From: Anaeromyxobacter paludicola
GTDB taxonomy: Bacteria > Myxococcota > Myxococcia > Myxococcales > Anaeromyxobacteraceae
Length of the DNA stretch: 64,000 bases
Assembly: GCF_023169965.1 (NCBI RefSeq)
Contig: NZ_AP025592.1
Coordinates: 2,852,001 to 2,916,000, forward strand
Direction of reading: 5' to 3'
A model generated the notes under the pieces. The model ran no database searches and had not been told where the DNA came from. It worked only from the letters and a program-made list of their open reading frames with translations. Position numbers and translations under genes: made by a program. Of the stretch, positions 40,697-51,520 are shown piece by piece. How positions within the stretch are numbered: position 1 is the first letter of the stretch; the number at the start of each line of letters is the position of its first letter.

Positions 40697-42304
40697 ATGG
40701 CCGCTCCCGACTCGCCCGGCGCTCCCCCCGCCGCGGCCCCGCAGCAGCCCGCTCCGCCCACCCCGCCCTTCGTGCGCGAGCTCGACACCCTCGTCCGCGC
40801 CCGCTACCCGCTCATCTACCTCGTGTCGTGGGAGGAGGCGCGGGTGGACGCGATCCTGCGCGACCTCGCCGAGCAGCACGGGAAGGCGCTCTACGCCTGG
40901 TCGGTGACCAAGGGGCTCCGGCGGCTCGGCGACCGGCGCGGCCGCGAGCAGCAGGAGGGCGGCAAGGATCCCGTCGAGGCGCTCGCGGCCGTCGAGAAGC
41001 TCTCCGAGCCGTCGCTCGTGGTGCTGAAGGACTTCCACCCCTTCCTCAACGACCCCACCGTCGTGCGAGCGGTGCGCGAGCTCGGCCAGGCGCTCAAGAG
41101 CACCTTCACCACGGTGATGATCCTCTCCCCCACCCTCCACATCCCGCCCGAGCTGGAGAAGGAGATCTCCGTCCTCGACGTGCCGATGCCGAGCGTGCGC
41201 GAGCTCCTGCAGCTCCTAAAGGAGATCGTGACCGTGGTGCGCGAGGGGAAGAAGGCCGTGGTCGACCTCTCGAAGGAGGACGCCGAGCGGCTCATCCAGG
41301 CCGCGCGCGGCCTCACCCTCACCGAGGCCGAGAACGCCTTCGCGAAGGCCATCGCCTTCGACGGCCGGCTCGACAAGGACGACGTCGCGCTGGTGCTCGA
41401 CGAGAAGCGGCAGGTGATCCGCAAGAGCGGGCTCCTCGAGTACCAGCCCGCCGAGGAGCAGCTCGGGAACGTGGGCGGCCTGTCGGAGCTGAAGCGCTGG
41501 CTCTCGCGGCGCGGCGCCGCGTTCGGCGAGCCGGCGCGGCGGTTCGGGCTCCCCGAGCCGAAGGGGCTCCTCCTCCTCGGCGTGCAGGGGTGCGGCAAGA
41601 GCCTCACCGCCAAGGCCATCGCCTCGCAGTGGCGGCTGCCCCTGCTCCGGCTCGACATGGGGCGGATCTTCAGCGGGCTCGTCGGCTCGTCGGAGGAGAA
41701 CCTGCGCCGCGCCATCCGCGTCGCCGAGGGCGTGGCGCCGGTGGTGCTCTGGATCGACGAGATCGAGAAGGGGCTCTCCGGCGTCGCCTCCTCCGGCACG
41801 AGCGACGGCGGCGTGACCGCCCGCATCTTCGGCGCGCTCCTCACCTGGCTGCAGGAGAAGACCGCGCCGGTGTTCGTGGTCGCGACCGCCAACCGCATCG
41901 AGGCCATCCCGCCGGAGCTTTTGCGCAAGGGGCGGTTCGACGAGATCTTCTTCATCGACCTCCCGGCGGCCGCCGAGCGGAGGGACATCTTCGGCATCCA
42001 CCTCGGCCGGCGGGGGCGGAAGCCCGAGCAGTTCGACCTCGAGAAGCTCGCCGCCCTCTCCGCCGGCTTCAGCGGCGCCGAGGTGGAGCAGGCGGTGGTG
42101 TCGGCGCTCTACGACGCCTTCGCCGAGAAGGTGGACCTCGCCCAGACGCACGTCGAGCGAGCCGTGCAGGAGACCGTGCCGCTCGCCACCACCATGCGCG
42201 AGGAGGTGGAGCGGGTGCGGGAGTGGGCGCGCACGCGCACCCGGCCCGCCTCGTCGGCGGCCGCCGAGGCCGTGCCCCGGCCCATCGCCACGCGCTTCGG
42301 CTGA
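40697..42304 (+). CDS. Ycf46-like AAA ATPase
   Basis: 535 residues. The N-terminal about 240 residues match the Ycf46-type domain ([30 protein letters not shown]). The AAA module has Walker [16 protein letters not shown] (about 294-308), Walker [13 protein letters not shown] (about 350-360) and [23 protein letters not shown] with the arginine-finger region (about 394-415). Ycf46 is a conserved cyanobacterial and plastid open reading frame of unclear function, probably remodelling or unfolding a partner. It heads a four-gene, same-strand cassette with a zinc-ribbon protein, DUF1257 and DUF2997, which supports a joint complex. Confidence 0.9.
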
Positions 42305-42343
42305 GGGCCGAGGGCTTCGCGCAGTTCTCGAGAGGAGCAGTAG

Positions 42344-43132
42344 ATGGCGGACAGGCTCGCCGATCGCTTCCGCAACCTCGAGCGCCCCAGGCGCCCCGAG
42401 GAGGTGGATACCGTCCATGAAGCGGACGCCCGCATCGGCGGGATCGAGCCCGCCGCCCGGCCCGGTGCTCTGCCCGCCGCGCCTGCGCCCTCGGTCGCGC
42501 CCGCGCACGTGGACCGGTTCCGGCCGCCCGCCGAGCCGGCGATCGACACCGCCCGGCACGACGAGGAGGCGCAGCCCTTCACGCGCTGCCCGCGCTGCGA
42601 GACCGACAACTCCCCCTTCACCCGCACCTGCACCACCTGCGGCTCAGACCTCGGGACCGCGGAGGTGCAGCGGTTCAACGAGCGGCTCTGGGAGGAGCGG
42701 AAGCGGGAGAAGGCGCTCGAGGAGCGCGAGGCCGCCGTGCGCGAGAAGGAGCGCGAGGTGGAGGCCGCCGCCACCGACGAGGCCCGGCGCGCCATGGCCG
42801 CGGAGATGGCGCGCGAGGTCGGCGAGCGGGAGCGGGCCCGGCTCGACCGCGACTGGGGGAGCTGGGGCGGGCCCGGTTCTCGCTGGGACGACTGGGGCGG
42901 CGGGGGCGGCGACCCCACGCCCTACGGCGTCCGGCTGCTGCGCCGGATCCGGAGCCCCGCCTGGCGCATCGGCGTCATCGTGGCGCTGGTGGCCGTGCCG
43001 CTCCTGCTCGTGATCTTCGGCAGCCCGCGCGGCGGGACGCGCCTCGCCGGGTTCATCGGACTGTTCGTGCTGGCCGCGCTCTTCTCGCCGCCCGGCTCGC
43101 GGTGGGGACGGCGGCGGTTCTGGGGGTGGTGA
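42344..43132 (+). CDS. Zinc-ribbon, coiled-coil membrane protein
   Basis: 262 residues with GAGGAG upstream. Residues 1-75 are Pro/Ala-rich and probably disordered. A zinc ribbon (CPRC and CTTC, about residues 82-101) is followed by a charged coiled coil (about 108-170, EERKREKALEEREAAVREKE), then a Trp/Gly-rich patch (GGPGSRWDDWGGGGG) and two membrane helices (about 206-225 and 230-247). The ribbon and coil should be cytoplasmic. No family recognised. The gene lies 39 bp after the AAA gene and 34 bp before DUF1257, so it may tether the ATPase or its substrate to the membrane. Confidence 0.78.
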   Translation: MADRLADRFRNLERPRRPEEVDTVHEADARIGGIEPAARPGALPAAPAPSVAPAHVDRFRPPAEPAIDTARHDEEAQPFTRCPRCETDNSPFTRTCTTCGSDLGTAEVQRFNERLWEERKREKALEEREAAVREKEREVEAAATDEARRAMAAEMAREVGERERARLDRDWGSWGGPGSRWDDWGGGGGDPTPYGVRLLRRIRSPAWRIGVIVALVAVPLLLVIFGSPRGGTRLAGFIGLFVLAALFSPPGSRWGRRRFWGW

Positions 43133-43166
43133 GGGTGGGCTTCTCTCTTGGAAGTGGGAGGCAGCC

Positions 43167-43544
43167 GTGAGCCAGGGCGTCGAGATCGTGCTCGTGATCC
43201 AGGGGCTCGCGGGGCTGGCGCAGGCCGTGACCGAGGCCGGCGCCGAGCTCATCCGCGAGCGGCGGAAGGTGAAGAACGCGCAGGGCCAGCTCGAGGAGGT
43301 CGCCGGCGTCATCCGCGACCAGGACGGCACCGAGGTGGGCGTGAAGCTCGACGAGCAGACCGGCCAGGCCGTGTTCGTCGGCCACGACGAGACCGGCAAG
43401 GCGAAGGCCCTCGCCGGCCGCGTGGCGCAGCGCTACGCGTACACCAAGGTGACCGAGGAGCTCCGGAAGAAGGGCTACCAGATCGCCCGCGAGGAGAAGC
43501 AGGCGGATGGGACGGTGAAGGTGGTCCTCTCAAAGTGGAGCTGA
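43167..43544 (+). CDS. DUF1257 (Ycf35-like) protein
   Basis: 125 residues from GTG with GGAGG upstream. The C-terminal half matches Ycf35/DUF1257: GRVAQRYAYTKVTEELRKKG, then ADGTVKVVLSKWS at the end. The N-terminus (SQGVEIVLVIQGLAGLAQAV) diverges from the usual SHFTTIKT start. Soluble, small and of unknown function. Its co-occurrence with DUF2997 and a Ycf46-type ATPase is a recurring neighbourhood as I recall it. Likely partner or substrate adaptor of the ATPase. Confidence 0.82.
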   Translation: MSQGVEIVLVIQGLAGLAQAVTEAGAELIRERRKVKNAQGQLEEVAGVIRDQDGTEVGVKLDEQTGQAVFVGHDETGKAKALAGRVAQRYAYTKVTEELRKKGYQIAREEKQADGTVKVVLSKWS

Positions 43545-43612
43545 GGGCCGGGCCGGCTTCGGGGCGGGCCTTCAGGGCGCGGGCTTAGGGCTTCGGGCGA
43601 AGTGGAGGCAGC

Positions 43613-43819
43613 GTGGCGACCAAGGTGGAGATCGAGGTGGAGATCGACCCGCAGGGGAACGTGAAGCTCACCACGCGGGGACTCAAGGGGCAGAGCTGCC
43701 TCAAGCAGACGGAGCAGCTCGAGAAGGCCCTTGGGAAGGTGGCCGCCCGAGAGAAGACGCGGGAGTTCTACGAGCAGCCGGTCAGCGGGGCGACGACGGG
43801 GGTGAAGAGGGGGTGGTGA
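43613..43819 (+). CDS. DUF2997 small protein
   Basis: 68 residues; GTG start preceded by AGTGGAGGCAGC, almost the same leader as DUF1257 (AGTGGGAGGCAGCC). Matches DUF2997: EIEVEIDPQGNVKLTTRGLK, then QSCLKQTEQLEKALGKV and REFYE. One conserved cysteine in GQSC. Probably binds DUF1257; the pair is often adjacent. Last gene of the cassette, followed by the low-GC insertion. Confidence 0.82.
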   Translation: MATKVEIEVEIDPQGNVKLTTRGLKGQSCLKQTEQLEKALGKVAAREKTREFYEQPVSGATTGVKRGW

Positions 43820-44159
43820 GGGGGCGCGGGCTTTCGGACTACGAATCCTAGGGGCAGAGGTGCCTCCGCTTCCTTCAGCGGGCGAGCCAGCACAGGAACT
43901 TTCTGGAATGCCTGGCCCTTCTTTGTTGGGCTCAACGAGCGCAGGTAGCAACGGTGTAGCAAGCGCCATCTCTTCAGCGCTCGCTCCTGCGACGCAGGAT
44001 CCGCCGCCGCGCTCCAATTGGTCGCCGCGCTACCGCCAGGGAGAAGCGCCGCCGCAGAACGAAGGAGACGGGGATCCGGTAGAGCGGCGTCGTGCCTCCG
44101 CCGCACGCGACGATCCGACTCGACCGCCGCGATGGCTGCGCTATTCTACGCGCTGCGCC
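43820..44159. other. Gene-free left flank of the low-GC insertion
   Basis: 340 bp between DUF2997 and the EVE-HNH gene. No credible gene: open frames here have no start signal or family. Composition shifts downward in GC from about 43840 (CTTTCGGACTACGAATCC marks roughly the change), so this is likely imported or decayed DNA. No integrase, tRNA or flanking direct repeat was found. Confidence 0.5.
44142..44147 (+). promoter_or_regulatory. Candidate -10 box (TATTCT) of the EVE-HNH gene
   Basis: TATTCT lies 12 nt before ATG 44160 and no Shine-Dalgarno is visible. Consistent with a short-leader or leaderless transcript. Confidence 0.35.
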
Positions 44160-45122
44160 ATGCAATACTGGTGGGTCAACCAGAAGCAGACGCACCGCCA
44201 TGAGCTAGGCGGTGGGTACCTGTGGTCGCCGAAGCGCAGGGCGGATGGGGCACGCAATCAGTTCTACGAGAACATGCGGATCGTCGCGCCGGGCGACGTC
44301 GTGTTCTCATATTGGGAAGGCGCGGTACGCGCTTACGGGACGATCTGCTCGTTCGGCTACGATGCTCCCAAACCATCGGAGTTCGGCGACGCTGGGCGGA
44401 GCTGGAGTCAGATCGGCTTCAGGGTCGACGTCGAGTATGCACGGTTGCAGCACCCCGTCCTTCCTCGGGCGTCATGGGACCGCATCCAGCCCCTCCTCCC
44501 CGACCGGTACTCACCGCTCAACGCTGCGAACGGGAAGGGGCTTCAGTCTGTCTACCTCGCGGCCTTGTCGGATGAGTTCGGGCGCGTGCTCTGGTCGCTC
44601 ATCGAAGCGTCTGGCAACCCGCTGCCTGCAAGGGACCCGAAGAAGCCTCTCATCATCTCGGCGGAGGAACCAGAGCGAGAGCTTTGGGAGCGCCATCTCG
44701 TCGATGACATCGAGAAGGCATCACTCAGTTCGACTGAACGCGAGGCAGTGATCAAGGCTCGTCGCGGCCAGGGGCTGTTTCGCAGCAACGTGGCATCGAT
44801 GGAGCAGGAGTGCCGGATCACTCATGTCACAAACCCGGCGTACCTGATCGCAAGCCACATCAAGCCTTGGCGGCACGCTTCTAACGCGGAGCGACTGAGC
44901 TCGCACAACGGGCTCATGCTGGCACCTACGGCGGACTTTCTGTTCGACCGAGGCTTCATCTCCTTCGGCGAAGGACGGCTTCTAGTTTCGCCCGTTGCGG
45001 ATGAAAGGGCGCTCGTGAAGCTCGGAATAGACCCCGATCGGCCTCCGAATGTCGGAACGTTTTCAAAGCAGCAAGACGCGTTCCTTGACTTCCACAGGAA
45101 GGAGATCTTCCGGGCCGCGTAG
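44160..45122 (+). CDS. EVE-HNH modification-dependent restriction endonuclease
   Basis: 320 residues from ATG 44160, which matches the family start MQYWWVNQKQTHRHE. The EVE (PUA-like) domain, residues 1 to about 130, includes GGYLWSPKRRADGARNQFYE and APGDVVFSY; such domains flip and read modified cytosines. The C-terminal HNH domain shows Cys218 in CRITHV, His233 in ASHIKPWRH and Asn250 in SSHNGLML, then FDRGFISF. EVE-HNH fusions are type IV-like enzymes that cut phage DNA with modified cytosine. Three 60-base lines counted by hand average about 60% GC against 70-72% in neighbours, a strong sign of transfer. Confidence 0.9.
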   Translation: MQYWWVNQKQTHRHELGGGYLWSPKRRADGARNQFYENMRIVAPGDVVFSYWEGAVRAYGTICSFGYDAPKPSEFGDAGRSWSQIGFRVDVEYARLQHPVLPRASWDRIQPLLPDRYSPLNAANGKGLQSVYLAALSDEFGRVLWSLIEASGNPLPARDPKKPLIISAEEPERELWERHLVDDIEKASLSSTEREAVIKARRGQGLFRSNVASMEQECRITHVTNPAYLIASHIKPWRHASNAERLSSHNGLMLAPTADFLFDRGFISFGEGRLLVSPVADERALVKLGIDPDRPPNVGTFSKQQDAFLDFHRKEIFRAA

Positions 45123-45367
45123 GGGATCGGGCCGGCGTCATTAGCGCGCAGCACCACCAATGCGGCACGCTGGTGCCGGCTTCTGGCCTGGAAGGAGCCG
45201 TTGCCTCCGCTGCGTGGCCACAAGGTCCAGGTCGCGCTCCTCGGCCTGGTCCACTGGAAGAGCGTTCATCTGTCGTTCACTAAATCGGCGGCCTACGAAA
45301 TCGGAGGCCCCCCACGCGAACCATCCAGCGGGCATGATGGGCCGCGCCTCACTAAGCCTTGGGGCCG
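45123..45367. other. Right flank of the low-GC insertion
   Basis: 245 bp after the endonuclease. A 43-residue minus-strand frame starting with ATG at about 45272 (MNALPVDQAEERDLDLVATQ) can be read but has no family or context, so it is not called. Composition returns to the GC-rich norm around 45340-45370. Confidence 0.45.
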
Positions 45368-46126
45368 ATGCCCCACGCCCACCTCCGCCTCTACGCCGAG
45401 CTGAACGACTTCCTCCCTCCCTCGAAGCGTTTCGTCTCCTTCGACCACCCCTTCCACGGCCACCCCTCCGTGAAGGACGTCATCGAAGCCCTCGGCGTCC
45501 CCCACACCGAGGTGGACCTGGTCCTCGCCGACGGCGAACCGGTGGACTTCTCCTGGCGCCTCCACGACGGCGCGCGCGTGGCGGTCTACCCGGTCTTCGA
45601 GGCCATCGACATCGCGCCCGTCACCCACGTCCGCCCGGCCCCGCTGCGGGAGGTCCGCTTCGTCCTCGACGGCCACCTGGGCCGGCTGGCGCGGCACCTG
45701 CGCATGCTGGGCTTCGACACCGCCTGGCGTAACGACGCGCCCGATGACGAGCTGGCCCGAATCTCGGCCGAGGAGCACCGCATCCTCCTCACCCGCGACC
45801 GCGGCCTCCTCAAGCGTCGCATCGTGACCCACGGCTACCTGGTCCGAGCTTCGGACCCGCGCGAGCAGCTCACGGAGGTCCTGCGCCGCCTCGACCTCCA
45901 CGGCGCCATCGCCCCCTTCCGCCGCTGCCTGCGCTGCAACGGGCTCCTCGAGCCGGTCGCCAAGGCAAAGGTCGAGTCCGCGCTACCGCCGGCGGTCCGC
46001 CGCGAGCACGAAGACTTCCGCCGCTGCGATTCCTGCGGCCGCGTCTACTGGGCGGGCTCGCACCACCGCCGGATGACGCAGCTCGTCTCCGAGCTGCTCG
46101 CCGAGCGGCGCGCCGAGGCGCCCTGA
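45368..46126 (+). CDS. Ubiquitin-like/Mut7-C PIN-type RNase
   Basis: 252 residues from ATG 45368. Residues 1 to about 85 form a beta-grasp Ub-Mut7C domain (HLRLYAELNDFLPP, then VSFDHPFHGHPSVKDVIEAL in part). Residues about 97-245 are Mut7-C, a PIN-fold RNase: FVLDGHLGRLARHLRMLGFD and ILLTRDRGLLKR supply acidic residues, and a zinc ribbon with CLRCNG and CDSCGRVYW closes the domain. Probably cleaves RNA; the role of the beta-grasp domain is unknown. Cytoplasmic. First gene right of the insertion. Confidence 0.88.
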   Translation: MPHAHLRLYAELNDFLPPSKRFVSFDHPFHGHPSVKDVIEALGVPHTEVDLVLADGEPVDFSWRLHDGARVAVYPVFEAIDIAPVTHVRPAPLREVRFVLDGHLGRLARHLRMLGFDTAWRNDAPDDELARISAEEHRILLTRDRGLLKRRIVTHGYLVRASDPREQLTEVLRRLDLHGAIAPFRRCLRCNGLLEPVAKAKVESALPPAVRREHEDFRRCDSCGRVYWAGSHHRRMTQLVSELLAERRAEAP

Positions 46127-46169: not shown

Positions 46170-47654
46170 TCACTTGGCGTCCATCACCGGCCGCTGCGTC
46201 GCCACGGGCGGCGCCTTCGCGACCGGTGGCGTGCGGGCCGCGACGGCCCTCCCCTCGTCCACGTCCCCCACCATCCCGGCCAGCTCCCGCAGGCTCACGT
46301 CGTGCGGCGACCGGCGCCGGTCCTCCTCGCCGCCTCGCAGCACACGCGCGAGCTCCGGCCCGAGCCGCGCCTCGAGCTCCGCCCGCACGGCGTCGGCCTG
46401 CGGCTCCATCCTCAGTGCATCCTTGAGATCGCTCACCCGGATCCGGTCGAGGTCCCGGCCCGGCAGGTAGCCCACCGCGCCTCCGACGTCGGCCCGCGCC
46501 AGCAGCCCTGCGCGCACCAGCGCCTGCAGGGTCTCCTCGATGGCGAGCGCGGGCACGTCCACCAGCTCCGAGAGGCGCGCCTGCGCCCGCCACGGCCCGC
46601 CGCGCAGGAACTCGCGCGCGACGTGCGCCCCGACCACCACCGCCAGCGTCTCGCGCAACGCCTGGTCGGCCTGCTGCGCCCGCAGCCGCTGCCGCACCAG
46701 CCCCTCGTTCTGGTGGCTCGCGGCCACCTGCGCGCCGACGAGCACCACGAGCCACGACACGTAGGTCCAGACGAGGAAGATCGGCAGCGCGCTCAGGACG
46801 GAGTAGAGGGCGTTGTAGCTCGACACGCCGACCTGGAGCTGCACGTACAGGACGAGCGCCACCTGCCAGAGCACGGCGGCGACGAGCGCGCCGATGGCGC
46901 AGGAGAGCCGCCGGGTCCGCACGTTGGGCAGGATGAGGTAGAGCGCGAAGAACGCGACGCCGACCACGGCCACCGAGGTGAAGCGGAGCAGGAAGTCGAT
47001 CACCGCGCCGATCCCGGACACGTCGCGGAGGAACTCCACCACCCGCGAGCTCTGCGCGGCGGTCGCGGCGGTGCCGGCGGCGAGGATGAGCAGCGGCGTG
47101 GTGACGAGCAGGGTGACGTAGTCGGTCACCTGCCGCAGCAGCGTGCGCCGCGTCTTGGCGCCCCAGATGTCGTTGAGCGTGTCCTCGACCGACGAGAGCA
47201 GGCTCACGCTGGTGTAGAGCAGGATGAGCAGCCCCACCGCGCCGAGCGTGGAGAAGTTGGTCCGCTGGACGAACTGCAGGATCTTCTCGGTGGCCCCGAG
47301 CAGCGCGGGGTTGTCGCCGAAGGTCTGGTGCAGGTAGGGCCGGACGCTCTTCTCGATGAAGCTCTCGTACGCCCCGAACCCCTTCAGGATGGCGAAGGCG
47401 AAGGCGAGGAAGGGCACGATCGAGAGGACGCTGTAGTAGGTCAGCGCCGCGGCCCGGACGGTGATCCGGTTCGAGAAGAAGCCCTGGAAGCCGGAGTAGA
47501 GGACGCGGCTCCCGCGGTAGAGTAGCCGCTGCCAGCCGCGCAGGTCGGCGACGCGCACGGCCCAGATGCGCACGCGGAAGAAGGCCTGGGCGCGAGCCAG
47601 CGGCGAGCGCTCGTCTTCCCGCTCGCTGGGAGTCCTGTCGGGGCGGGCTGCCAC
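46170..47654 (-). CDS. YihY/BrkB-family membrane protein
   Basis: 494 residues from GTG 47654. A TTG at 47708 is open in frame but overlaps the cold-shock terminator, so I prefer the later start. Six or so membrane helices lie between about residues 60 and 320; the family pattern includes RAAALTYYSVLSIVPFLAF and GASVAAVLW-like segments (here GALVAAVLWQVALVLY). The cytoplasmic C-terminal about 170 residues contain a winged-helix-like part (LVDVPALAIEETLQALVRAG). Often mislabelled ribonuclease BN; BrkB proteins are probably transporters or envelope factors. Confidence 0.85.
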   Translation of the reverse strand: MAARPDRTPSEREDERSPLARAQAFFRVRIWAVRVADLRGWQRLLYRGSRVLYSGFQGFFSNRITVRAAALTYYSVLSIVPFLAFAFAILKGFGAYESFIEKSVRPYLHQTFGDNPALLGATEKILQFVQRTNFSTLGAVGLLILLYTSVSLLSSVEDTLNDIWGAKTRRTLLRQVTDYVTLLVTTPLLILAAGTAATAAQSSRVVEFLRDVSGIGAVIDFLLRFTSVAVVGVAFFALYLILPNVRTRRLSCAIGALVAAVLWQVALVLYVQLQVGVSSYNALYSVLSALPIFLVWTYVSWLVVLVGAQVAASHQNEGLVRQRLRAQQADQALRETLAVVVGAHVAREFLRGGPWRAQARLSELVDVPALAIEETLQALVRAGLLARADVGGAVGYLPGRDLDRIRVSDLKDALRMEPQADAVRAELEARLGPELARVLRGGEEDRRRSPHDVSLRELAGMVGDVDEGRAVAARTPPVAKAPPVATQRPVMDAK

Positions 47655-47708
47655 CTCCTGAACTTGCGCCCGGCGGCGCCTCGCCGCACGCCTGCCCCCA
47701 GAACGCAA

Positions 47709-47762: not shown

Positions 47763-47966
47763 CTAGACCGGGCGGACGTTCGCCGCCTGCAGGCCCTTCG
47801 GGCCCTTGGTCACGTCGAACTCCACCTTCTGGCCCTCGGCCAGGGTGCGGAACCCGTCGGCCTGGATCGCGGTGTGGTGGCAGAACACATCCTCGCCACC
47901 GCTATCCTGGGTGATGAAACCAAAGCCCTTCGCATCGTTGAACCACTTCACCGTACCAGTAGCCAT
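47763..47966 (-). CDS. Cold-shock protein (CspA family)
   Basis: 67 residues, standard single cold-shock domain. RNA-binding motifs: KGFGFI (RNP1) and DVFCHH (RNP2), where Cys replaces the common Val. The start [10 protein letters not shown] is invariant for the family. It binds single-stranded RNA or DNA and melts secondary structure. No clear Shine-Dalgarno precedes the ATG. About 275 bp separate it from the next gene, leaving room for a long 5' leader as in other csp genes. Its own terminator follows. Confidence 0.95.
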
Positions 47967-48242: not shown

Positions 48243-48731
48243 ATGCCCACCCTCCGCACCAAGATCACCCCTCACCTCTGGTTCGCGAAGGGAGCGGCCG
48301 AGGCGGCGCGGTTCTACGCCTCGCTCTTCCCCGATTCCCACGTCGATCAGGTCACGCCGATCCCGGTGGACACCCCGAGCGGCCCGGCCAACTCGGTGCA
48401 GATCGTCTCCTTCACCCTCGCCGGCCAGCCGTTCGTCGCCATCGACGCCGGCCCGCTCGACCCCTTCAACCACGCCATCTCCTTCGTGGTGAGCTGCGCC
48501 GATCAGGCGGAGGTCGATCACTACTGGAACGCCTTCGCCGATGGCGGGCAGCCCGAGCGCTGCGGCTGGGTGCGGGACCGCTTCGGCGTCTACTGGCAGG
48601 TGGTGCCGGACGCCCTGGGCGAGCTCATGCAGCGCGCCGACACGGCGGGCGGGAAGCGCGTGATGCAGGCCATGCTCGGCATGCAGAAGCTCGACGTCGC
48701 CGGCCTCCAGCGCGCGTACGAGGGGACCTGA
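48243..48731 (+). CDS. VOC/PhnB-like protein
   Basis: 162 residues, GAGGAG upstream. Matches the PhnB/3-demethylubiquinone methyltransferase-like VOC family: ITPHLWFAKGAAEAARFYASLFPDS (in part), NHAISFVVSC and CGWVRDRFGVYWQVVP. Metal or catalytic function is unproven for most members, despite the methyltransferase name. Cytoplasmic. Convergent with the radical SAM gene. Confidence 0.88.
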   Translation: MPTLRTKITPHLWFAKGAAEAARFYASLFPDSHVDQVTPIPVDTPSGPANSVQIVSFTLAGQPFVAIDAGPLDPFNHAISFVVSCADQAEVDHYWNAFADGGQPERCGWVRDRFGVYWQVVPDALGELMQRADTAGGKRVMQAMLGMQKLDVAGLQRAYEGT

Positions 48732-48768: not shown

Positions 48769-49428
48769 TCAGCGAGGGTCGATGCCCTCCGGCCACCCGT
48801 TCACGAACACGCGCCCGTCCGGCCCGATCCGCACCTCCACCGTCCGCGCGAGCTCCCCCGGCGGCGCCCGCTCGACGCCGGGCGCGTACCTCGCGGTGAG
48901 GAAGTGGAACCGCTGGTTCTCCGATCCGACCCAGCGGCGCGACCGCTCGGGCCGCGCCCGGTCGAAGGGCCCGTCCACGAGGAGGTCGGTCGCGGCGAGG
49001 AGCGCGGCCACCCCGGCGTCGCCCGCGGCCCGCGCCTGCAGCGCCTCGAGCGCGTGGCCGGTGAAGACCATCACCGAGAGCCCGAGCCCCCGGGCGGCCC
49101 GGCAGAGCGCGGCGGCGGGCGCGGCCTGCTCGAAAGGCTCGCCGCCGAGCAGCGTCAGCCCATCGAGCCCACCCTTCCCTACCTCTCGCGCCAGCTCCCG
49201 GGCGAGCGCCTGCACCGTCACCCGCTCCCCGCCGCGCGGGTCGAAGAGGTGCGGGTTGCAGCACCCGGCGCAGCGCAGCGCGCACCCCTGCAGCCAGACC
49301 GCGTACCGGCTCCCGGGCCCCTCGGCCTCGGTGCGCGCCACCCGGTGGCCGATCCGGAGCGCGGGCGCGTCGGGCGGCCGCGGGACGGCGCTGGCCCTGC
49401 GGGCGAGCGGGGGGCGGGAAGAAGTCAC
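48769..49428 (-). CDS. NrdG-like radical SAM protein
   Basis: 219 residues from GTG 49428. The 4Fe-4S motif is Cys49-x3-Cys53-x2-Cys56 (QGCALRCAGCCNP), followed by LTLLGGEPFEQ, the GGE SAM-binding element. Resembles class III ribonucleotide reductase activating enzymes and related single-cluster radical SAM proteins. No NrdD is in the window, so its partner glycyl-radical enzyme is unknown. Alternative longer starts run over the promoter of transketolase and lack support. Divergent from tkt, with a small dyad GGGCGA/TCGCCC at 49469-49484 between them. Confidence 0.8.
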   Translation of the reverse strand: MTSSRPPLARRASAVPRPPDAPALRIGHRVARTEAEGPGSRYAVWLQGCALRCAGCCNPHLFDPRGGERVTVQALARELAREVGKGGLDGLTLLGGEPFEQAAPAAALCRAARGLGLSVMVFTGHALEALQARAAGDAGVAALLAATDLLVDGPFDRARPERSRRWVGSENQRFHFLTARYAPGVERAPPGELARTVEVRIGPDGRVFVNGWPEGIDPR

Positions 49429-49525
49429 GCCAGCAGATGGTACACCCCCTTGATCTCGCCCTCCCCGTGGGCGACATTTCGCCCTTCCCAGCTTCCTCCC
49501 CCGCTCTTCGACGGAGAGATCCCTC

Positions 49526-51520
49526 TTGGCTTCACCCAGCGCAGACTTGACCCGGCTTTGCGTCAACACCATCCGCATGCTGGCCGCCGACGGCGTGCAG
49601 AAGGCGAACAGCGGCCACCCCGGCATGCCCATGGGCTGCGCCGACCTGGCGCACGTCCTCTGGACCCGTCACCTGCGCTTCGATCCCAAGGAGCCGCGCT
49701 GGCTGGGGCGCGACCGGTTCGTGCTCTCCGCCGGGCACGGGTCGATGCTGCTCTACAGCCTGCTCCACCTCGCCGGCTTCGACCTCAGCCTCGACGACCT
49801 CAAGAGCTTCCGCCAGCTCCACTCGCGGACGGCGGGCCACCCGGAGTTCGGCTACGCCCCCGGCATCGAGGTCACCTCCGGGCCGCTCGGCCAGGGCTTC
49901 GCCAACGGCGTGGGCATGGCGCTCGGCCAGGCGATCCTCTCCGCCCGGCTCGGCCCCGGCAACCCGGCCGCCGACCACTTCGTCTACGCCATCGTCTCCG
50001 ACGGCGACCTGATGGAGGGCGTGGCGGCCGAGGCGGCCAGCTTCGCCGGCCACATGAAGCTCGGCCGGCTCGTCTACCTGTACGACGACAACCAGATCAC
50101 CATCGACGGCTCGACCGCCATCACCTTCGGCGGCGAGGACGTGACGAAGCGGTTCGAGGCCTACGGCTGGCACGTCCAGTCGGTGGACGGCCACGACCAC
50201 GACGCGGTCCACCGGGCCATCGAGGCGGCCAAGGCGGAGCTCGGCAAGCCGAGCCTCATCCGCTGCCGCACCACCATCGGCTGGGGCTCGCCCGGCAAGG
50301 CGGGCAAGTCCTCCAGCCACGGCGCGCCGCTCGGCGAGGCGGAGCTCGAGGCCACCAAGAAGCACCTGGGCTGGCCGCTCGAGCCGCGCTTCCTCGTGCC
50401 CGACGAGGTCCGCGCCTTCTGGAAGGGCGTGCAGGCCGAGAAGGCCGCGCAGGTCGCGGCCGCGAAGCGGGACGAGGCGGCGTGGCGCGCCGCGCACGGC
50501 GAGCAGGCCGCGCTCCTCGACGCGCTCGTCACGCGCGCGCTGCCGGCCGACCTCCAGGCGAAGCTCCTCGAGGGCGCCGACCAGAACGACGCCACGCGCA
50601 AGCTCTCGCACGCCCTCATCCAGAAGGCGGCGGCGCTGGTCCCCTCGCTCATCGGCGGCTCCGCCGACCTGGCCGAGTCGAACCTCACCGAGATCAAGGG
50701 CGCGGGCGTGTTCGGGCCGCAGAACCCGGCCGCCCGCAACGTGCCCTACGGCATCCGCGAGCACGCCATGGGCGCCATCGCGAACGGCATGGCCTACGAG
50801 GGGTTCGCCATCCCCTTCACCGCCACCTTCCTCATCTTCTCCGACTACATGCGCCCGCCCATCCGGCTCGCGGCGCTGTCGCACCTCCAGTCGATCTACG
50901 TCTTCACGCACGACTCGATCTTCCTCGGCGAGGACGGGCCGACGCACCAGCCGGTGGAGCAGCTCACCACGCTGCGCGCCGTGCCGAACCTTCACGTGGT
51001 CCGCCCGGCCGACGGGCTCGAGACCGCCTGGGCCTGGGGCCACGCGCTCGAGCGGAAGGACGGGCCGACGGCGCTGGTCCTCACCCGCCAGAAGCCGGCC
51101 AAGGTGACCCGCGCCAGCTTCGACCCGGCGGCGGTCGGCCGCGGCGCCTACGTGGTCGCCGCTCCCGCCGGCGCCAGCTTCACGGTCCTCGCCACCGGCT
51201 CCGAGGTCGGCCTCGCGCAGGCGGCCCTGGAGCTCCTCGCGGCCAAGGGCGTGGTGGGGCGGCTCGTGTCGGTGCCGTGCCTCACCTGCTTCGAGGCGCA
51301 GCCGCAGTCCTACCGCGACGAGGTGCTGCCCCCGGGGCAGAAGGTGGCGGTGGTGGAGGCGGCGCGCGGCACCGAGTGGTGGCGCCACGCCGGCAAGGAC
51401 GGGCTCGTCATCGGCATCGACCGCTTCGGCGCCTCGGCGCCGGAGAAGGCGCTCGCCGAGGAGTACGGCTTCACGCCGGCCAAGGTCGCCGAGAAGCTCG
51501 AGAGCTGGGTGGCGCGGTAG
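49526..51520 (+). CDS. tkt: Transketolase
   Basis: 664 residues. TTG start with GGAGAG eight bases upstream. Thiamine-diphosphate enzyme of the pentose phosphate pathway that moves two-carbon units between sugar phosphates. Typical features: [41 protein letters not shown] (diphosphate-metal motif) and [20 protein letters not shown]. Full length. A canonical terminator follows at 51561. Confidence 0.97.

Follow-up and report, generated by a model that had tools for sequence, protein, structure and literature searches.

To our knowledge, no mechanism has been assigned to Ycf35 or Ycf46 to date. Ycf46 is broadly conserved in cyanobacteria, where a link with CO2 use and with stress has been reported (PMC7496141), a Ycf46 mutant being described by citing papers as affecting CO2 use (Jiang 2015, as cited in PMC7496141 and PMC5057469). 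In one red alga, ycf35 and ycf46 have decayed jointly (PMC5057469). The ycf35 gene has been published beside DUF2997 and fed7, the gene for a single-cluster ferredoxin, Fed7, that is required under iron and oxidative stress (PMC4284462), and in FtsH ternary systems a radical S-adenosylmethionine (SAM) enzyme acting on a peptide effector has been proposed (PMC7159879). Here, a module that contains relatives of these proteins is described from a window of 64,000 nucleotides, the whole stretch of Anaeromyxobacter paludicola DNA that was analysed (NZ_AP025592.1, positions 2,852,001 to 2,916,000). The locus consists of two joined units, a resident pair of a Ycf46-like AAA ATPase and a zinc-ribbon protein (ZNR), and a variable unit of DUF1257, DUF2997 and an NrdG-like radical-SAM protein. 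On balance, the module is probably an ATP-driven remodelling machine, in which a p97-like ATPase is served by DUF1257-DUF2997 as adaptor, optionally by a radical-SAM partner and, in this lineage, by a membrane anchor. No publication describing it was found, and DUF1257 and DUF2997 are seldom mentioned in the literature searched (subscription journals lay outside the search).

The ATPase (535 aa; 40697 to 42304, plus strand; PF00004 at 2.1e-28 plus AAA_lid_3) is followed on the same strand by the ZNR, a coiled-coil protein (262 aa; 42344 to 43132), the DUF1257 (Ycf35 family) protein (125 aa; 43167 to 43544; PF06868 at 1.2e-11) and the DUF2997 protein (68 aa; 43613 to 43819; PF11211 at 1.9e-16). 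A sequence-only reading of this DNA had placed these four intact ORFs, their domains and gaps of 34-68 bp correctly, the gaps being 39, 34 and 68 bp. Homologues keep the same order in same-family genomes, and dN/dS against a same-genus genome (G042) is 0.19 for the AAA, 0.42 for the ZNR and 0.27 for each DUF gene, so the four ORFs are real genes. The near-identical ribosome-binding leaders to which that reading had also drawn attention do exist (GAAGTGGGAGGCAGCC and GAAGTGGAGGCAGC), but they are not kept in G042; the likeness was therefore given no weight, and a common leader was rejected as a signal in favour of a local accident.

Loci were compared across 195 of the phylum's genomes. Where GC content is highest, the simple gene caller could not be relied on, and claims about those loci rest on profile or tblastn matches. 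DUF1257 occurs in 18 genomes, all of which also carry DUF2997, while two carry DUF2997 alone and 175 neither (Fisher p 1.6e-23). Rare co-occurrence, which had been named as grounds for giving up the association, is thus not what is seen, and the proposal that AAA, DUF1257 and DUF2997 belong together is upheld by the adjacency of the trio in Asgard archaea, plasmids and phages. Both small proteins pass their Pfam gathering cut-offs (DUF1257, PF06868: 45.2 bits vs 22.2; DUF2997, PF11211: 60.1 vs 24.1). In alignment, the window DUF1257 is a divergent subtype from which the canonical Ycf35-type motifs RG[WY] and ADWWG are absent; it can be read as a family member whose motifs do not establish orthology to Ycf35. 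The idea that RGY/RGW is a glycyl-radical site was dropped, as the window subtype is without it. DUF2997 has a beta-beta-alpha core, a G-x2-C motif and a conserved T-x-E-Y/F-Y tail, and the Gly and Cys of G-x2-C are kept without exception in all 44 distinct members of the family.

In contrast to the DUF genes, the AAA and ZNR are the constant pair across the myxobacterial order. Close relatives of the window AAA (group A, about 60-92% identical) are found in dozens of the phylum's genomes, and the ZNR stands directly behind the AAA in nearly all group A loci examined, the exceptions being two loci with no ZNR match (L055, L057). DUF1257 and DUF2997 follow the ZNR only in the window genus, genus g4, one g5 genome, G027 and G165. 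Within the window family (f1), the order without the unit is MalQ-(MTS)-AAA-ZNR-transketolase and with it MalQ-(MTS)-AAA-ZNR-DUF1257-DUF2997-(radical SAM)-transketolase, i.e. DUF1257-DUF2997-radical SAM is a clean insertion or deletion between ZNR and transketolase. A conserved substitute gene behind the ZNR where the DUFs are missing was sought and none was found but transketolase. Presence of the DUFs changes four times on the group A part of the AAA tree, which indicates repeated loss, or gain. The ZNR had been proposed as a lineage-specific addition to the cassette; as AAA+ZNR is constant in the order and the DUF pair is gained or lost, it is no late add-on inside the lineage. Elsewhere, AAA-DUF1257-DUF2997 systems are mostly without a ZNR; among them is a separate group B in families f2 and f4, in which DUF1257 and DUF2997 follow the AAA with no ZNR. 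The ZNR itself has two CxxC knuckles (CPRC...CTTC), matches Pfam Zn_Ribbon_1/DZR only below the cut-offs, and has two C-terminal hydrophobic segments (about residues 204-231 and 230-252); it probably tethers the ATPase to the membrane. In G027, two tandem zinc-ribbon genes separate AAA from DUF1257 (L030, 8462 to 9910). Possible decayed copies are seen in L077 (6032 to 7618), where the AAA match before DUF1257-DUF2997 covers the N-terminal part only, and in L062 (4506 to 4891), where DUF1257 is spread across two frames.

The cassette had been taken to end at DUF2997, and the radical-SAM gene of the same unit was missed (48769 to 49428, minus strand; 219 aa from an inferred GTG start; Fer4_12 at 4.9e-31). 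It lies 4.9 kb past DUF2997 and convergent with the DUF genes, with five genes between; in g4 genomes the distance is about 50 bp, and the five genes are absent from this position in other genera. Profile searches of neighbours show an NrdG-like radical-SAM protein recurring near AAA/DUF2997 loci, and within f1 it is present in 7 of 7 genomes with the DUFs and 0 of 16 without (p 4e-6, the genomes being treated as independent though related). The radical-SAM tree unites the copies of g1, g4 and G027 in one clade (88/94), apart from those of Myxococcaceae FtsH ternary systems (91/98). The window protein carries CX3CX2C (CALRCAGC at residue 42 of the 212-aa form) and GGEP motifs and passes PF13353 (Fer4_12; 108 bits vs 22).

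Beyond the order, the AAA is found near DUF1257 and/or DUF2997 in Asgard archaea (L165-L167, L177), Actinomadura (L081), the annotated Rhizobium phage RHph_I4 and plasmids of Geminocystis, Manganitrophus and Thermovibrio. Radical SAM comes together with DUF2997 and, as far as the stretch extends to it, with the AAA in the g4 relatives, one genome of the cyanobacterial phylum (L121), three type D myxobacterial loci, five Asgard loci and Actinomadura L081, usually with DUF1257 or a DUF1257-like protein; a Calditrichia locus (L079) has DUF2997 and radical SAM, with no AAA within that stretch. Among viral contigs, 31 were found to carry this AAA; 11 of them have DUF2997 within 3.5 kb and five have all four genes. 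Scans of viral contigs with a cyanobacterial DUF1257 and an Asgard AAA gave matches, and one with the myxobacterial DUF1257 alignment gave none. DUF2997 is rare in the genomes sampled (3/296 in Actinomycetota, 9/148 in Asgard, 1/40 in Calditrichota). The earlier framing around photosynthesis is not supported, since the module occurs widely in archaea, viruses and bacteria that do not photosynthesise. Several of these loci have neighbours of their own. Asgard DUF1257-DUF2997-AAA operons L165, L166 and L177 adjoin Mre11-Rad50-like genes (named from sequence); in L167 their place is taken by a zinc-ribbon protein, possibly of the membrane, which parallels the ZNR. In L114 and L121 the cluster of AAA, DUF1257 and DUF2997 has GrpE- and Hsp70-like genes as neighbours, and L121 has a radical SAM as well. 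The type D loci (L162-L164, in G060, G055 and G057) run AAA, MkoA-like SF1 helicase (1100 aa), a 560 aa protein, a 660 aa coiled coil, DUF2997, a divergent DUF1257 with coiled coil and radical SAM, and look like an undescribed conflict system.

That the ATPase is of the Ycf46 type, as had been suggested, is borne out by 45-49% identity to cyanobacterial Ycf46-like AAAs over full length (48-49% to cyanobacterial Ycf46 over residues 27-524) and by a tree in which its clade is sister of cyanobacterial Ycf46 (Shimodaira-Hasegawa-like approximate likelihood ratio test (SH-aLRT) 83). In cyanobacteria, a DUF1257 paralogue follows directly behind Ycf46 in 9 of 9 loci examined (L104-L112), so that the AAA is close to DUF1257 there as in the window, where, as in its f1 relatives, the ZNR lies between. 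This paralogue is shorter at the C-terminus, and Ycf46 is preceded by a small gene of HicB/RHH-like type that has a CPEC motif; most cyanobacterial genomes with DUF1257 have at least two copies. The canonical DUF1257 adjoins DUF2997 and a Fer4_13 ferredoxin in the cyanobacterial locus examined (L113). The N-terminal AAA-like domain of the window ATPase (about residues 1-255) is without a P-loop. Judged by its motifs, the C-terminal domain is the active one, with the sole P-loop (Walker A 295-302, GVQGCGKS), Walker B VLWIDE at 350, GRFD at 412 and GLVGSSE at the pore-loop position 327. In Foldseek searches, a homologue's AAA model matched p97/Cdc48, Drg1 and NVL across both domains (about 570 columns, E 3e-22); the window ATPase is predicted to be p97/Cdc48-like, and hexameric ATP-driven unfolding is a prediction from this fold match only. 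A second Ycf46-like AAA in the same genome (G000:C1:1289506-1290954, L059) is about 43% identical and has neither DUF1257 nor DUF2997.

In some loci DUF1257 and DUF2997 share one reading frame, so that reading the stop as a residue yields a natural linked pair for modelling. AlphaFold2 gave such a read-through pair from a relative, with the window proteins included in the alignment, a predicted local distance difference test score (pLDDT) of 90.2 and a predicted template modelling score (pTM) of 0.83, for a linked chain and without predicted aligned error (PAE). A pTM of this size would be hard to reach with randomly placed parts, and the linkage may help. The structural modelling that had been proposed for the four-protein complex thus gave a confident DUF1257-DUF2997 pair and no confirmed AAA-DUF1257 contact. 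DUF1257-like/DUF2997 fusion proteins exist in Asgard loci L168-L170, the DUF1257-like N-terminal half being recognised by eye and Pfam detecting DUF2997 only. Searches for PDB relatives of DUF1257 and DUF2997, by sequence and by fold, gave nothing significant, and a viral structure library likewise.

The five genes between DUF2997 and the radical SAM lie outside the module. They are an HNH_2 nuclease (43860 to 45122, plus strand), a Ub-Mut7C domain fused to a Mut7-C RNase domain (45359 to 46126, plus), and genes which we take from their sequences to be YihY/BrkB-like (46170 to 47708, minus), cold-shock (47763 to 47966, minus) and PhnB/VOC-like (ending at 48731, plus). Same-genus G042 shares the Mut7C, YihY and cold-shock genes; HNH and PhnB were not found there. 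The HNH_2 nuclease resembles defence-associated HNH enzymes, and the Ub-Mut7C/Mut7-C gene adjoins the module in the window genus only, among the genera compared. The right boundary of the variable unit is the transketolase ORF (49454 to 51517, plus; stop to stop, with the true start further in).

In the remodelling machine favoured here, the AAA would form a p97/Cdc48-like ring, probably held at the membrane by the ZNR. DUF1257 and DUF2997 would pair as a heterodimer, in keeping with the model, the conserved adjacency and the fusions, and this heterodimer would dock on the ATPase and bring or mark a client. Where present, the radical SAM would act on a component of the pathway, most simply DUF2997 or the client, the target being a guess, and ATP hydrolysis would then remodel or extract the client. 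Which genes the module has, their order and co-inheritance, the families they belong to and the constraint on them are observations; assembly, chemistry and client are proposals. The adaptor model is preferred since the two DUF proteins are small and inherited together, form a pair in the model, occur as fusions in some Asgard archaea and are encoded next to a p97-like ATPase. Several results weigh against it. The pTM of the DUF pair comes from a linked chain without PAE, and the AAA-DUF1257 read-through model reached a pTM of 0.56. Most of the order keeps AAA+ZNR but has no DUFs, which that ATPase can therefore do without. The radical SAM of G047 is unlinked and outside the g1/g4/G027 clade, that of G165, which has the DUFs, was not found by this search, and the gene is missing from type B loci (AAA-DUF1257-DUF2997 in f2), from several Asgard loci and from the cyanobacterial ones apart from L121. 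Loci without it still keep the DUF2997 cysteine, for which the radical SAM by itself therefore does not account.

A serious rival to the adaptor model, albeit one that we hold to be a good deal less probable, is that the variable unit is a conflict system, anti-phage or inter-phage, in which the radical SAM modifies DUF2997 as the effector and the ATPase restrains it and releases it upon infection. Patchy presence at one locus, occurrence in viruses and plasmids, a type D helicase that matches Mokosh MkoA at 5e-79, RloB and a zeta-toxin family gene at the Geminocystis plasmid locus, and a close relative of the window radical SAM in FtsH ternary systems (PMC7159879), where action on a peptide effector is predicted, all speak for it. 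However, PADLOC matched neither the radical SAM nor the DUFs, Asgard loci adjoin Mre11-Rad50 and not known effectors, and cyanobacterial Ycf46 is broadly conserved and tied to CO2 use and stress (PMC7496141). A separate reading, which we put forward tentatively and think unlikely, takes AAA, DUF1257, DUF2997 and radical SAM as one trans-domain system of bacteria, Asgard archaea and viruses. In it, the p97-like ATPase would act on a small protein that carries a radical modification at the invariant G-x2-C site, and the plastid genes ycf46 and ycf35 would be stripped-down descendants of the system.

More doubtful is a role in iron-sulphur or radical-enzyme upkeep, in which the NrdG-like protein would make a glycyl or other protein radical and AAA plus DUFs would insert, repair or remove the damaged enzyme. 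The recurring iron-sulphur partners (radical SAM in the window; Fed7, required under iron and oxidative stress, beside DUF2997-DUF1257 in cyanobacteria, PMC4284462, and Fer4_13 in L113) and the Hsp70-GrpE genes of L114 and L121 fit this, but no glycyl-radical enzyme was seen in the neighbourhoods examined, the window radical SAM is not an NrdG equivalog, and type B and several Asgard loci showed no iron-sulphur neighbour. The model of the sequence-only reading, a single membrane-tethered four-gene complex in which the ZNR is the novelty of the myxobacteria and the DUFs serve as adaptor or substrate, is improbable: the gaps are tight and the ZNR nearly always accompanies this AAA clade, but AAA+ZNR occurs without the DUFs, related AAAs have the DUFs without a ZNR, and the DUF unit includes the radical SAM. 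Chance neighbourhood is scarcely credible and is already contradicted by synteny, since adjacency recurs in bacteria, archaea and viruses with joint insertion/deletion and purifying selection, even if a zinc-ribbon gene or transketolase can sit anywhere and f6 carries a radical SAM of this type but no DUFs.

That relatives of Ycf35 and Ycf46 can be placed beside DUF2997 and a p97-like ATPase, and often beside a radical SAM too, provides concrete partners to test. The module is also present in viruses and Asgard archaea, and its relatives in culturable myxobacteria and cyanobacteria are open to pull-down, modification and deletion tests.

Among described systems, FtsH ternary systems (PMC7159879; Pfam fvmX families) likewise combine an AAA, small proteins and a radical SAM, the latter about 48-58% identical to that of the window (52-56% in Myxococcaceae loci L187-L189), but their small proteins are their own, unlike DUF1257 and DUF2997. 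Homology of DUF2997 to the fvmX3-analog and of DUF1257 to fvmX5 was rejected (hhalign probability at most 1.2%, shallow profiles). As fvmX6 is found neither in the window genome nor in any of the f1 genomes searched, the window does not hold an FtsH ternary system; MoxR and vWA genes were not seen among the genes looked at from 37.5 to 51.5 kb, a whole-window profile scan not having been made. NrdG shares the Fer4_12 radical-SAM family and CX3CX2C with the window protein, which differs in scoring below the NrdG equivalog cut-off (TIGR02491; 88 bits vs 126.1) and in adjoining AAA/DUF genes. With p97/Cdc48, Drg1/AFG2 and NVL the ATPase has a tandem AAA architecture in common, as judged by the homologue's model, but its first AAA-like domain lacks their P-loop, identity in the fold match is about 17%, and no p97 N domain is seen. 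The DUF2997-ycf35-fed7 cluster (PMC4284462) resembles the module in that DUF2997 and DUF1257 are adjacent with a 4Fe-4S protein beside them, and differs in that this partner is a ferredoxin and not a radical SAM, the AAA is not adjacent and the DUF1257 is of the canonical subtype. Finally, the order of Ycf46 and the DUF1257 paralogue matches the slr0373-slr0374-slr0376 stress operon (PMC7496141, PMC7283877), in which slr0376 would be the DUF1257 paralogue, as gene order suggests, Synechocystis itself lying outside the comparison. Its Ycf46 AAA is 48-49% identical over full length to that of the window, whereas its first gene is small and HicB/RHH-like, and no DUF2997, ZNR or radical SAM was found in the nine cyanobacterial Ycf46 loci.

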